DNA of 44,738 nucleotides. Source: a virus. Every line of letters begins with the position of its first letter. The stretch's first letter is position 1. The notes under the pieces are model-generated. The model did no database searches. It was not told the origin of the DNA and saw nothing but the letters and a program-made list of their open reading frames with translations. A program made the position numbers and the translations under genes. The stretch covers positions 1 through 44,738 of IMG/VR virus record IMGVR_UViG_3300046529_000389; one strand, given 5' to 3'. Shown one piece after another: positions 11,977-16,252 of this stretch.

Positions 11977-12299
11977 CAACGCGACGCGGATTCATTGCGG
12001 GCATTGGCGCGCTGCTGTGCGCGCCCGCTATCGTGCGCGCTTCAAGCCTCATGCCTCTCTCGTTTTGGCGTGTCCCTGGGTTGTACGAACGTGTGATGTG
12101 GGGAGATGCTATCGCCCAAACCGACATTGAGAAATTTATTGCCGACGAGGTATTGCCGCTGGCGAAGCGCCAACTCCAAATTTATCAGTTTGACGATCCG
12201 CTCATGCTTCCCCCAGGCACGATCACGCATCCCATAATCAGCGTGCATCCAAACTACACGGCTACACGCTGGGCGCCCTGCCACGTTTATGTGGATTGA
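11973..12299 (+). CDS. Tat-signal small protein with capsid-arm-like motif (108 aa)
   Basis: The N-terminus is a twin-arginine signal: TTRRGFIAGIGALLCAPAIVRA (shown here only as RRGF plus the hydrophobic core, residues 4-23). Residues 60-73, VLPLAKRQLQIYQF, and 95-100, YTATRW, closely match the major capsid protein at 24-37 (VLPLALKELSVYQF) and 51-56 (WTATRW). The gene lies between terminase and portal with ATGA overlap upstream. I know of no assigned function. It may be an exported decoy or an assembly factor sharing the capsid N-arm; both are guesses. Confidence 0.75.
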   Translation: MTTRRGFIAGIGALLCAPAIVRASSLMPLSFWRVPGLYERVMWGDAIAQTDIEKFIADEVLPLAKRQLQIYQFDDPLMLPPGTITHPIISVHPNYTATRWAPCHVYVD

Positions 12300-12304
12300 G
12301 ATCA

Positions 12305-14434
12305 ATGGCAACCGATAGCAAGACACGCGCCCGCGACGATGAGTTGATGGACGATGATGACATCGCCAAGCAAGCCGAGAAGATTTACGATTACGTCAGC
12401 AAGGGATGGGATGAGCAGCGCGAGCGCACCGACAAGCTGCTTGACCTTTGGGAACTCTACAACTGCGAGCTAGGGCGCTATCAGAATTATTCCGGCATGT
12501 CGAAAATCTTCGTGCCGATTGTACGCAACGCGGTCAACGCGCTTGTCGTGCGCTACGTCAACCAGAGTTTTCCCAACTCGGGCCGTCATGTCGAATGCGT
12601 CTCGGGCGAGGATGACACGCCTTACGCACTTCTTGCGCTGATTGAACACTACATCGCCGAAAGCAAGTTGCGCACGCAGGCCGCGACCGAGTTGTTGACC
12701 AACGGCCAGATCGAAGGGCAATACAACGCCTATTTCCATTGGAACCGCAGAACGCGCACCGTCGTGACGCGCGAATCGCGACCGATCAAGGTTGCGGGCA
12801 TCGAGACGCCCGAGATGGGCGAGCTTGAGGTCACGATGGAAGAAACCATCGAAGATTCGTTCCCGCAGCCCGAAGTGCTGCATGACAGCGACGTTCTTGT
12901 CCTGCCCGCAACCGCTGGCTCTATCGATGAGGCGCTTGAGTCGGGCGGCTGCGTCGCGGTGATGCGGCGCTGGACCAAAGCGCAAATCGAGAAGATGGAG
13001 GATGACGGCGATATCTCGGAAGACACCGCCGACGACTTGATCGATCTTCTCGGCCAAGGCAGCGGCGACAAGGTGCGTGACGCGGAACGCAAACTCGCCA
13101 ACTCCATCGGTATTCAATTCAGTCGCGGCAAGTCGTGGTCGCAAGTGTGGGAGGTTTGGCACAAATTCGAGGTAGATGGCGAGCGCCGCTTGTGCCGCGC
13201 GTTCTTTACCGGCGAGAAGAAAACCGGGAGCATCAAACTCAATCCGAATTGGAATGATCGCTGCCCGGTGGTGTCGGCGCCGGTCAAGAAAGTGCCCGGT
13301 GTCTTCAAGGGCGAATCGCCCGTCGCCGCGTGTAAGGATATGCAATGTCTCGCCAACGACATGATCAACGAAGGCGCGGACATGATGTACTACACACTCG
13401 CGCCTATCGTGACCGTCAATCCGCAGTTGGTCACAAAATGGAAGGAGCTTGTCGCCGACATCGGGGCCGTGTGGCCCGTGCAACCCGATGGCGTCAAGAT
13501 GTTCGAGTGGCCGAATAAGATTCGCGAGGCGCTTGAGGTTGTCGGCGTGTGTAAGGTCGGAATCTTTGAAGCGTTGCAGGTCAACCCCGCGATGCTCGCG
13601 CAGCAGACCTCCAAGCCCGGCGCTAAAAGAAACCAAGCGGAGGTCGCGCTTGAGCAGCAAGTGGACCTGTTGCAGACAAGCGACGCTGTTACGAACTTCG
13701 AGGAAGAAATCTTGACGCCCTTCGTGCAATGGGCGGCGGAGTCGGATCACCAATACCGCGAGAAGGAAATTCTTGTCCGCGAGTTCGGCGATCTCGGCAT
13801 GAAGGCCGGGATGGAGCGCATCAAACCTATCCAGTGGGGCAAAAGATGGATGCTCAAATGGATCGGCGTCGAAGCGCAGCGTAACGCTTCCAACATCCAG
13901 CAGATCATTTCATCCATCAACATCGTGAAAGAGATTCCGCCCGATGCCTATATCGGTCGGCGCCTCGATCTCGCCCCCGCCATCGACTTCCTGATCGGCG
14001 TGACCTGCGGCACGACATTGGCCCGTAAAGTCTGGTTAAATACCTGGGAAGAACAAACCATCCCTGTAGAACAGGAGAACCAGATGCTCGCGGAAGGGTT
14101 CGAGGTCATCACGCATCCCGCCGACGATGACGCCAAGCACCTTCAGGCGCATATGCAGGTGCCGCCCGGCCCGACGCGGGACGCCCATATCGCCATGCAC
14201 CAGCGCGCCATCGAAATGAAAATGAAGGCGCAGATGATGCAGCAGATGCAACAAATGGGGATGGCGCCCAACCAGCCGGGGCAGGCCGGGGCCAGACCCC
14301 GACGCACAGCGCAAGGGGGCCGCGCTGGCGCGCAAGTCGCCAACCCCCGTCAGGGGTTCCAGGCCCCAGGAGCGATCAGAGCAGATTCGCTGCCTAAAGC
14401 AGGCGCGTTAGTACCGCCCCGGCGGGCAGGCTAA
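12305..14434 (+). CDS. portal protein (P22-like, 709 aa)
   Basis: Forms the dodecameric portal at one capsid vertex for DNA passage. The N-terminal part (MSKIFVPIVRNAVNALVVRY at about 60-80), the central VPGVFKGESPVAACKDMQ, and the helical stem/crown region with AMLAQQTSKPGAKRNQAEV follow the pattern of P22-type podovirus portals. The C-terminus has PPGPTRDAHIAMHQRAIEMK, then a disordered Gly/Pro/Arg tail ending PKAGALVPPRRAG. ATG 12305 is chosen over an upstream TTG. The last 13 codons exist again, synonymously recoded, at 15075-15116 beyond the antisense HNH gene. Confidence 0.9.
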   Translation: MATDSKTRARDDELMDDDDIAKQAEKIYDYVSKGWDEQRERTDKLLDLWELYNCELGRYQNYSGMSKIFVPIVRNAVNALVVRYVNQSFPNSGRHVECVSGEDDTPYALLALIEHYIAESKLRTQAATELLTNGQIEGQYNAYFHWNRRTRTVVTRESRPIKVAGIETPEMGELEVTMEETIEDSFPQPEVLHDSDVLVLPATAGSIDEALESGGCVAVMRRWTKAQIEKMEDDGDISEDTADDLIDLLGQGSGDKVRDAERKLANSIGIQFSRGKSWSQVWEVWHKFEVDGERRLCRAFFTGEKKTGSIKLNPNWNDRCPVVSAPVKKVPGVFKGESPVAACKDMQCLANDMINEGADMMYYTLAPIVTVNPQLVTKWKELVADIGAVWPVQPDGVKMFEWPNKIREALEVVGVCKVGIFEALQVNPAMLAQQTSKPGAKRNQAEVALEQQVDLLQTSDAVTNFEEEILTPFVQWAAESDHQYREKEILVREFGDLGMKAGMERIKPIQWGKRWMLKWIGVEAQRNASNIQQIISSINIVKEIPPDAYIGRRLDLAPAIDFLIGVTCGTTLARKVWLNTWEEQTIPVEQENQMLAEGFEVITHPADDDAKHLQAHMQVPPGPTRDAHIAMHQRAIEMKMKAQMMQQMQQMGMAPNQPGQAGARPRRTAQGGRAGAQVANPRQGFQAPGAIRADSLPKAGALVPPRRAG

Positions 14435-15001
14435 AATAGCTTTCGCTATACGTAAAACCTCGGCATCTGAGAGCGAGCTTTTAAAGTTATTTATACACGA
14501 AAGAACGAATCTGGAATTTTCAGGGGAATAGCCTAGTAAATTATCAATTCTGTCCAGGCTTGGGGAAAAAGGCCCCCCTCCGTTTTGCGTGTTTACGAGA
14601 TCAAAATCTAACCCGCTAAGGCTGCATTTTCCGGTCCAAATTTCTGCCGCCCATTTTTTGGAGAGTGTAAAAATCAAGCCCTTTTTTTTGGCCCTTTCCT
14701 TTGCTGACTTTAGGGGAAGGTTCCATGGTTCTAAAAGGCGTTGTTTCTTCCTCCATTTTTCATTGTTTGCCAAAAATTTTTGTGGGTTATTTTTGTAACG
14801 CTTGCGGCTTCTGAGGCGGGTGGCTTCTGGATTTTTTTGATATGCTTGGCGGTTATATTCTTGCCGACATGCCGCACAGGCTTGGTTTCTCGTTACTCGC
14901 ACGGTGACATGCCCCTTTGGGCAAGCCATACCTGTAAAATAATATTTGGCGTTCAGCCTGCGAGCTTCGGCGGCAGAAGTGGGAATGTTTTGATCCAGCA
15001 T
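14408..15001 (-). CDS. HNH-type (homing) endonuclease inserted at the portal 3' end (197 aa)
   Basis: A probable free-standing homing endonuclease on the strand opposite to all its neighbours. The N-terminal zinc knuckle uses CPKGH at 27-31 and CAAC at 42-45. The nuclease core has CSLSG at 126-130, SLDRIDN at 148-154 and GYSPENSRFV at 157-166, then a conserved-looking NN pair at 171-172. The gene is clearly AT-richer than its surroundings, a sign of recent transfer. Its last codons (ACPPGRY, stop TAA at 14408-14410) overlap the end of the portal gene. It has no good Shine-Dalgarno. Confidence 0.85.
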   Translation of the reverse strand: MLDQNIPTSAAEARRLNAKYYFTGMACPKGHVTVRVTRNQACAACRQEYNRQAYQKNPEATRLRSRKRYKNNPQKFLANNEKWRKKQRLLEPWNLPLKSAKERAKKKGLIFTLSKKWAAEIWTGKCSLSGLDFDLVNTQNGGGPFSPSLDRIDNLLGYSPENSRFVLSCINNFKSSLSDAEVLRIAKAILACPPGRY

Positions 15002-15039
15002 GGGTCATGATATTACCATGCGCACATCTAGGTTGCCAT

Positions 15040-15116
15040 TCTTCCTCACTTGGGCCGCTGACCGCGACGCCATGCCAAAGGCTGGGGCGCTTGTTCCGCC
15101 CCGCAGGGCGGGCTAA
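15040..15116 (+). pseudogene. displaced, recoded copy of the portal C-terminal codons
   Basis: In the plus strand, 15075-15116 reads PKAGALVPPRRAG and stop, the same 13 residues that end the portal gene at 14393-14434. Ten of 42 bases differ and every change is synonymous. Upstream in frame (15040-15074) the reading WAADRDAM has no start and no match to the present portal. It is best explained as the original portal end, cut off when the HNH gene entered with its own version of the tail. Confidence 0.75.
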
Positions 15117-15224
15117 TGTCTTGCTGCGGCAGAAGCGTGGAATGGGAATCCTTGGCCGAAAGGCAGCGCTGCCGGAGTCCCGCCCGGCCCGCAGTAAATC
15201 TTCCTCACTTGGGCCGCTGACCGC
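15040..15224. repeat. 26-bp direct repeat flanking the displaced portal end
   Basis: The identical 26-base string beginning TCTTCCTCACTTGGGCC lies at 15040-15065 and 15199-15224, 159 bases apart. The first copy is upstream of the displaced portal codons; the second provides the left arm of the terminator-like hairpin. The sequence between and beyond them (to 15451) holds no convincing gene apart from the recoded portal remnant. Confidence 0.85.
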
Positions 15225-15262
15225 CCCCTCCTCTACCCCAGCAGGTCAGCGGCTCCTTTTTC
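15211..15262 (+). terminator. rho-independent terminator-like hairpin after the portal region
   Basis: Arms GCCGCTGACC (15213-15222) and GGTCAGCGGC (15244-15253) pair perfectly over ten bases, with a 21-base loop, followed by TCCTTTTTCT. Orientation is plus. It would partly end transcription between portal and scaffold, or attenuate it. A promoter for the downstream capsid genes was not found. Confidence 0.6.
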
Positions 15263-15451
15263 TGGAATTGTGGCAACCCCTTGACGACCCACTAGGGATT
15301 GTGGCAATGTCTTGCCCACGCTTTGCTCATGTGCGGATCATGGGCGGTTTTCGGCGGGCTTCCTAAAAACCTGCCCACTCGGTTTTCTTGCCGGTTTCCC
15401 GAAGCAAACTGGCTCCCGCTGACAGCGTGCGAATCGCTGTAGGAGTGCAGA
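15263..15451. other. intergenic region before the scaffold gene
   Basis: No gene seen. ATTGTGGCAA is repeated at 15267 and 15298. It contains a TTGACG at 15281-15286 without a -10 box at a suitable distance. It ends in GTAGGAGTGCAG, the ribosome binding site of the scaffold gene. Confidence 0.45.
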
Positions 15452-16252
15452 ATGGCCGACGCCGATACGCCGCAGCCTGACGACGAGCTTGAGCCTGATG
15501 AGCCTCTAGCCAACGAGCCAGAAAGCGACGAACCGCCGCCGGATGATGCAACCGAAGCGGCAGACGATGATCCAGACGCCCCTGAGCAAGAGCCTGACGA
15601 ACCGCCCGTTGCCGCGCGCACCGGGCCGGATGCGTCTCAGCGCGACCGCAGGGTCAGGGATCGGGAACTGCGGCGGCTGGTTGACGAAGAAGTCGAGAAG
15701 CGACTGTCGGCGCGTACTCAACGCCCTCAGATCGATTATGCGGCGCAGCAGCGTGTACGCGACGAGCAGCGCAAGCGCGAGCTTGAAGATGCCCGGATGC
15801 AAGGGCCGGAAGCCTATGCCGATACGCGCGACCGGCATTTGCGCGAGGACTACAACCAAGACCGCCAAATCCAGGCGGTACAGCAAGCCGACGAACGCGA
15901 TCAACTGCGCTTCGATAGGCTCTGCGACCGTGAGCCAATTTACGACTCCATGCGCGACGATGTTGAGCGAGAAATCGCCAACATTCGAGGCAATGGCTAC
16001 ACGGGGCCGATTTCCAGAGAGGCCGTTGCGGAGCGGATGTTCGGGAAGCGGCAGATTGAGCGCGCCAAGCGCTCGGCGCCGCAACAGCGCCGCAACGCCG
16101 CAGCGGCAGCACAACGCCAGAACGGGCGCTCCTCAAATGGCGGCGCCCGCAGTACGCAGCCAGCTAGTCGCGGCTCGCGCCGGAACTTCGCCGACCTCTC
16201 GCTCGCCGAGATGGAACAGCAACTCGCACGCATCCCCATCAAGAATTCATAG
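15452..16252 (+). CDS. scaffolding-like protein (266 aa)
   Basis: It lies between portal and major capsid protein, the usual place of the scaffold that guides procapsid assembly. The first 60 residues are highly acidic and Pro-rich, followed by a long charged helical region (about 65-165, with RDEQRKRELEDARMQ) and a basic, Ala/Gln/Arg-rich C-terminus (RSAPQQRRNAAAAAQRQ). The acidic N-terminus, helical middle and basic C-terminus are typical of scaffolds that dock to coat protein. No sequence motif proves it. Confidence 0.7.
   Translation: MADADTPQPDDELEPDEPLANEPESDEPPPDDATEAADDDPDAPEQEPDEPPVAARTGPDASQRDRRVRDRELRRLVDEEVEKRLSARTQRPQIDYAAQQRVRDEQRKRELEDARMQGPEAYADTRDRHLREDYNQDRQIQAVQQADERDQLRFDRLCDREPIYDSMRDDVEREIANIRGNGYTGPISREAVAERMFGKRQIERAKRSAPQQRRNAAAAAQRQNGRSSNGGARSTQPASRGSRRNFADLSLAEMEQQLARIPIKNS

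Follow-up and report, generated by a model that had tools for sequence, protein, structure and literature searches.

An HNH endonuclease gene between two differently encoded copies of a phage portal gene end

The window analysed here is a stretch of phage DNA of 44,738 nucleotides (IMGVR_UViG_3300046529_000389, positions 1 to 44,738), to which all unprefixed coordinates refer. At the locus under study, a portal gene, an antisense HNH endonuclease gene and a second copy of the portal gene end follow one another (Table 1). The portal ORF is listed with a TTG start at 12296, with an ATG at 12305, and is assigned by a match to phrog_332 and by one to SU10_portal (9.6e-07, 28 bits) that falls just under Pfam's 30-bit cut-off. 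Among annotated phages, neither a nucleotide search nor one with the portal protein turned up a relative. Among relatives gathered with an alignment, the closest of which is 48% identical, the identity lies mostly in the part up to residue 710, and about 80 distinct portal ends were inspected. Most of these ends are variants of a conserved motif whose fullest form is PPGxIxxDxMxxAGAVxMPRKM.

Table 1. Features of the portal end and of the DNA that follows it.
Feature	Position	Strand	Basis
Portal gene as now expressed	12296..14434	+	SU10_portal, phrog_332; 38-48% identity to relatives
Active, independently encoded portal tail, DSLPKAGALVPPRRAG-stop	14384..14434	+	codon use, tail comparison
HNH endonuclease gene, 197 aa	14408..15001	-	phrog_3322, phrog_1035, conserved residues, PacI HNH fold
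Upstream non-coding end of the presumed inserted unit	15002..15039	.	assigned by exclusion
26-nt exact copy of 15199-15224, probable repair filler	15040..15065	+	right junction repeat
Displaced resident portal tail, DAMPKAGALVPPRRAG-stop	15066..15116	+	homology; family D-x-M motif in relatives
Native spacer between portal and next gene, with terminator hairpin and TTGAC	15117..15451	+	fold; order in several relatives
26-nt repeat, source copy, which includes the terminator hairpin's left arm	15199..15224	+	repeat; fold

The C-terminal peptide of the portal, PKAGALVPPRRAG-stop, is encoded twice, as CCTAAAGCAGGCGCGTTAGTACCGCCCCGGCGGGCAGGCTAA at 14393-14434 and as CCAAAGGCTGGGGCGCTTGTTCCGCCCCGCAGGGCGGGCTAA at 15075-15116, which we call the active and the displaced copy. 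Each copy comprises 13 codons and a TAA, and the 10 of 42 bases that differ (8 third and 2 first positions) are all silent, so the first-pass annotation, which had described the portal end as present twice with these differences, holds on recount in both coordinates and counts. Homology extends three codons further upstream, to an aspartate, where DSL in the active copy (DSLPKAG..., from 14384) faces DAM in the displaced one (DAMPKAG..., from 15066); over these full paired tails 14 of 51 bases differ, a comparison that rests on 16-17 codons only. A degenerate pattern for the tail peptide, expected 0 times per shuffled window, was found exactly twice, and we therefore reject a chance origin of the repeated peptide. 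Across 2.9 million IMG/VR contigs the same pattern occurs in one near-identical sister contig only (10,247 bp), again twice. Only 2 positions distinguish this contig from the window, and as they lie past 19.7 kb, outside the tail/HNH region, a private assembly error is unlikely. A search of IMG/VR for another portal with the tail peptide, either a donor or an empty site, found none.

The gene between the tails encodes an HNH, endonuclease VII-like protein, as judged by its matches to phrog_3322 (5e-25) and phrog_1035 (6e-22); against Pfam it has no match at threshold. An alignment of 14 sequences shows no variation at residues D150, G157, N162 and N171. The best structural match to its AlphaFold model (mean pLDDT 82) is PacI (Foldseek E 1.2e-4), and a profile search of solved structures also points to PacI for the HNH domain, making this rare-cutting HNH enzyme (PDB 3ldy) the closest solved fold as well as the profile match. 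PacI is a restriction enzyme, whereas the window protein adds an N-terminal region that is zinc-ribbon-like. A scan with this single protein recovered the sister contig and two loci that match over the N-terminal region only. The HNH gene has 45.6% GC compared to 57.5% for the window. Its ORF is intact and overlaps the portal end by 27 nt, its last 8 residues and its stop being supplied by the antisense of the active portal tail. The stop codon itself is the antisense of a TTA leucine codon in the active tail; the displaced copy has CTT at this position, which gives no stop.

Beyond the HNH gene, the right junction is sharp, in that the first copy of the 26-nt repeat ends exactly where the homology of the displaced tail starts; the two copies are still perfect, the second lying 159 bp downstream of the first. 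The left end is not sharp, and rare codons are found from around 14366. The displaced copy is followed by its stop at 15116, a terminator hairpin at ~15211-15260 (-28.1 kcal/mol, z -3.2), a TTGAC element near 15282 and the next gene at 15452. In several relatives that lack the HNH gene a TTGAC element likewise lies after the portal stop and before the next gene, in one of them (L043) together with a terminator. A 119-aa ORF over the displaced tail (15007-15366) was rejected as a gene, having no PHROG match and running through the terminator, and since no overlapping gene is apparent there, the displaced tail is taken as an untranslated relic.

An HNH-like gene is lacking from the portal end in all of the about 80 distinct relatives, which makes the HNH gene optional at this site among phages that are otherwise syntenic. 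An end-anchored scan found no second portal tail in any of them, the arrangement that the first-pass annotation had named as refuting its own reading. As a separate observation, in two phages of the portal family (L007:9292-10628 and L014:8805-10171) an HNH gene overlaps the end of the adaptor gene, and the adaptor proteins there have a C-terminal extension past the family-wide NTKxxGW terminus; a similar adaptor extension is found in L029 near 3438.

As to which tail is native, the displaced copy has D-x-M, the commonest form in the family, while the D-S-L of the active copy also occurs in the family. This D-x-M, the 26-nt repeat at the right junction and the overlap of the HNH ORF with the portal end, including its stop on the recoded TTA, add to what the first-pass annotation had described. 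Because the native order of the spacer and the family D-x-M both go with the displaced copy, the active copy looks like the newcomer and the displaced one like the native end. Codon use agrees with this assignment: relative to 13-codon windows from the same phage, the 13 active codons rank at the 0.06th percentile and the 13 displaced codons at the 6.6th. Comparison of the tail DNA with 31 relatives does not discriminate between the two copies as the native one; the closest portal relative is only 48% identical. Two random encodings of the tail peptide with the codon use of the phage differ at 9.7 +/- 1.8 positions, and the 10 differences observed match this expectation, so that the copies are synonymously saturated. 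Going by its codons, the active tail must either come from another portal lineage or have long been part of the element, and where we speak of it as recoded we mean that it is independently encoded, probably having arisen in another portal lineage, and not that codons were changed for immunity.

We consider it likely that a free-standing HNH gene inserted near the last 17 portal codons and brought with it a sequence encoding a complete alternative C-terminus. The inserted unit would measure about 682 bp (14384-15065), its tail would stem from another portal lineage or have been retained by the element, and the resident tail would have been pushed downstream; as the unit encodes a complete alternative C-terminus, the portal protein stays full length. 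The first-pass annotation had likewise proposed that the HNH gene entered the portal end with its own differently encoded tail and left the portal intact, and both proposals are supported, the former by the HNH-less relatives and the independent encoding, the latter by an inserted C-terminus that is in frame and gives a full-length product. HNH cleavage, the mobility of the element, the identity of its donor and the route of repair we infer from this anatomy. Probably, the HNH enzyme first cleaved the resident site near 15065/15066. The left end would then have been repaired through homologous invasion of a donor's portal gene, from which the tail and the HNH gene were copied. On the right side of the break, end joining would have used a 26-nt filler with its template 159 bp downstream, and the repeat observed there fits such a step. 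Under the insertion model, the exact portal end before insertion is expected to have read ...GACGCCATGCCAAAGGCTGGGGCGCTTGTTCCGCCCCGC..., and, as the first-pass annotation had suggested, the recoded tail plausibly also makes the locus resistant to the HNH enzyme.

An alternative that we regard as unlikely is that the resident tail was copied in situ upon insertion and the active copy later changed silently under selection, be it for nuclease avoidance, for avoiding recombination between the repeats or for accommodating the end of the antisense HNH gene. It would account for the identical peptides of the two tails and for the TTA that supplies the HNH stop where the displaced CTT would not, and recoding would stabilise the repeat. 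However, although the displaced copy no longer codes in its old frame, all 10 differences within its 13 codons are silent and no amino acid is changed; long drift of this copy would give such changes, and the divergence thus predates the displacement. In a simulation, none of 200,000 sets of 10 random substitutions was entirely silent. The adjoining 26-nt repeat, being still perfect, implies that little time has elapsed, and DSL and DAM are both natural variants of the family. Duplication with drift fails also because the active tail is codon-atypical and synonymously saturated and the displaced copy sits in native context.

The anatomy that we ascribe to insertion of an HNH gene with its own tail was found again elsewhere. 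When about 150 loci carrying related HNH genes, some of which are the same gene twice, were surveyed with an end-anchored test for duplicated gene ends, two further loci emerged, in unrelated phages, where gene-end copies flank an HNH gene; the same filter gave 0 matches in 968 kb of portal-family control loci. The first, L169, is from a T4-like contig of 167 kb (IMGVR_UViG_3300035670_000018) and has the end of the uvsW helicase gene duplicated, independently and in recoded form, around an HNH gene at 2252-2954. Its GEEKFKFKIYKIELK-stop stands on both sides with 15 identical residues, silent changes affect 7 of 16 codons counting the stop, and nothing else is changed. The second uvsW-end copy is also the start of the next gene. 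Where relatives are annotated, uvsW and the corresponding gene are mostly adjacent or overlap (by up to 17 nt), and a nuclease gene does not separate them. The second locus, L248, lies on a 67-kb contig (IMGVR_UViG_3300031901_000001), with the duplication at 1425-1890 on the minus strand. There, a spanin that is Rz-like by PHROG (4e-5) ends in LLWDRKAPSGD-stop, and beyond the HNH gene LLWERKAPAGD-stop is found inside a downstream lipoprotein gene that, judged only by reading its sequence, resembles Rz1. Unlike in the portal case, the displaced tails of both loci are still needed by the next gene, and because of this overlap duplication and later drift are possible for uvsW and for Rz/Rz1. A further candidate, L147, was rejected since its paired tails do not flank an HNH gene.

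The recurrence bears on a second alternative, which we rate as improbable, namely that illegitimate recombination joined a donor portal end and the HNH gene to the resident DNA and that the nuclease is a mere passenger at the boundary of the exchange. Nuclease genes have indeed been reported at boundaries of genetic exchange, according to the accessible portion of one study (PMC10448857). Against passive mosaicism stands the recurrence of this anatomy in unrelated phages, at two further HNH insertions, together with its absence from the 0.97 Mb of control loci. We give hardly any credence to a resident packaging nuclease of the HrdP/HK97 gp74 type with an incidental repeat: the gene does lie in the packaging module and adjoins the portal gene, but packaging HNH proteins of this type are defined by conserved presence in that module (PMC12724721), and the present gene is antisense, AT-rich, on the far side of the portal and absent from the portal end in about 80 distinct relatives. 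Equally remote is a self-splicing intron with the displaced tail as a real 3' exon, which the intact, family-style displaced tail would suit, since 14000-15700 has no group I or II match in Rfam, only two sub-threshold chance matches, the HNH gene is antisense and the portal is complete without splicing.

The closest precedent for insertion with replacement of a gene end comes from the mitochondria of Allomyces and Glomus, where mobile endonuclease ORFs introduce a foreign C-terminus in place of the native one, which is left behind downstream (PMC3630166). Such hybrids are described for atp6 in Allomyces and for atp6, atp9, cox2 and nad3 in Glomus; the inserted tails are 64-81% identical in DNA to those of related species, and the atp6 copies are 91% identical in protein (PMC3630166). 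The portal locus shares with these mobile ORFs an inserted C-terminus that is in frame and yields a full-length product, an endonuclease ORF directly attached to the inserted tail (here by the 27-nt overlap), a native C-terminus displaced downstream, and an inserted tail that has diverged in DNA and much less in protein. It differs in having an HNH enzyme in a phage, whereas the mitochondrial enzymes are of the LAGLIDADG or GIY-YIG type, and in having an antisense HNH gene and a tail of 16-17 codons, whereas the fungal tails are longer and, together with the mobile ORF, read in the direction of the host gene.

Free-standing homing endonucleases of T4-like phages (intronless homing; Seg, Mob) overlap their neighbours by about 11-24 bp and show co-conversion of the sequence that flanks them (PMC2988022); they resemble the present case in being optional nuclease genes that adjoin an essential gene with ORF overlap. 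Unlike in our model, the sites that these enzymes cut lie hundreds to thousands of bases away from the enzyme's gene, and a term search of that review found no displaced duplicate gene end (PMC2988022). In Shivani and phiR201, a GIY-YIG gene separates a spanin pair that overlaps in T5; the i-spanin ends differ in sequence, and the accessible portion of the report describes no recoded duplicate tail (PMC6139136). The first-pass annotation had regarded the restoring of a host gene end in altered codons as familiar from some site-specific elements, but not as described for a free-standing HNH gene at a portal gene. A literature search that covered few subscription papers found no phage HNH gene described as carrying a recoded gene end; the principle has its precedent in fungal mitochondria (PMC3630166). 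The main idea is supported: the locus would hold a free-standing phage HNH element that acts as the mitochondrial mobile ORFs do, by supplying a new end to the gene that it enters.

Homing genes in essential genes are usually hidden inside introns or inteins. Together with its two parallels, the portal locus indicates a third route in phages, in which the gene end is replaced by an equivalent, independently encoded one. Tentatively, phage HNH homing genes may repeatedly travel with a codon-scrambled end of their target gene, by which the occupied site is made immune. If this is true, restoring the gene end is a third way into essential genes, besides introns and inteins, and an HNH cassette can invade coding sequence, overlapping gene pairs included, without splicing. 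Gene-end replacement would account for the entry of nuclease genes into phage genes that overlap or are packed tightly. Its signature, tails of the same peptide in different codons around a nuclease gene, locates the insertion and the presumptive cut site at base resolution, and self-immunity by synonymous recoding becomes directly testable.

Several other arrangements were noted in passing. At L182:2307-3240, an HNH gene stands between two copies of the 5' end of another gene (MNIFILDTDIELCAKYHC...), possibly a mirror-image case at a gene start; it was not counted, as the copies start with identical DNA. At L200:2019-3434, a truncated 5' fragment resembling a Holliday-junction resolvase gene is followed by an HNH gene and then by a complete copy, and was set aside as possibly a truncated paralogue. 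At L172:2252-2800, an HNH gene lies within a weak duplication of a cytosine methylase gene start (MxTYGSICSG), also left uncounted as a match of 10 residues. On a phage contig of 142 kb, an HNH gene has direct repeats on both sides that are non-coding (L132:2688-3414). Within the window, a near-perfect tandem repeat of ~91 nt lies at 2110-2297 on the minus strand, where the ends of small membrane-protein-like ORFs are repeated.
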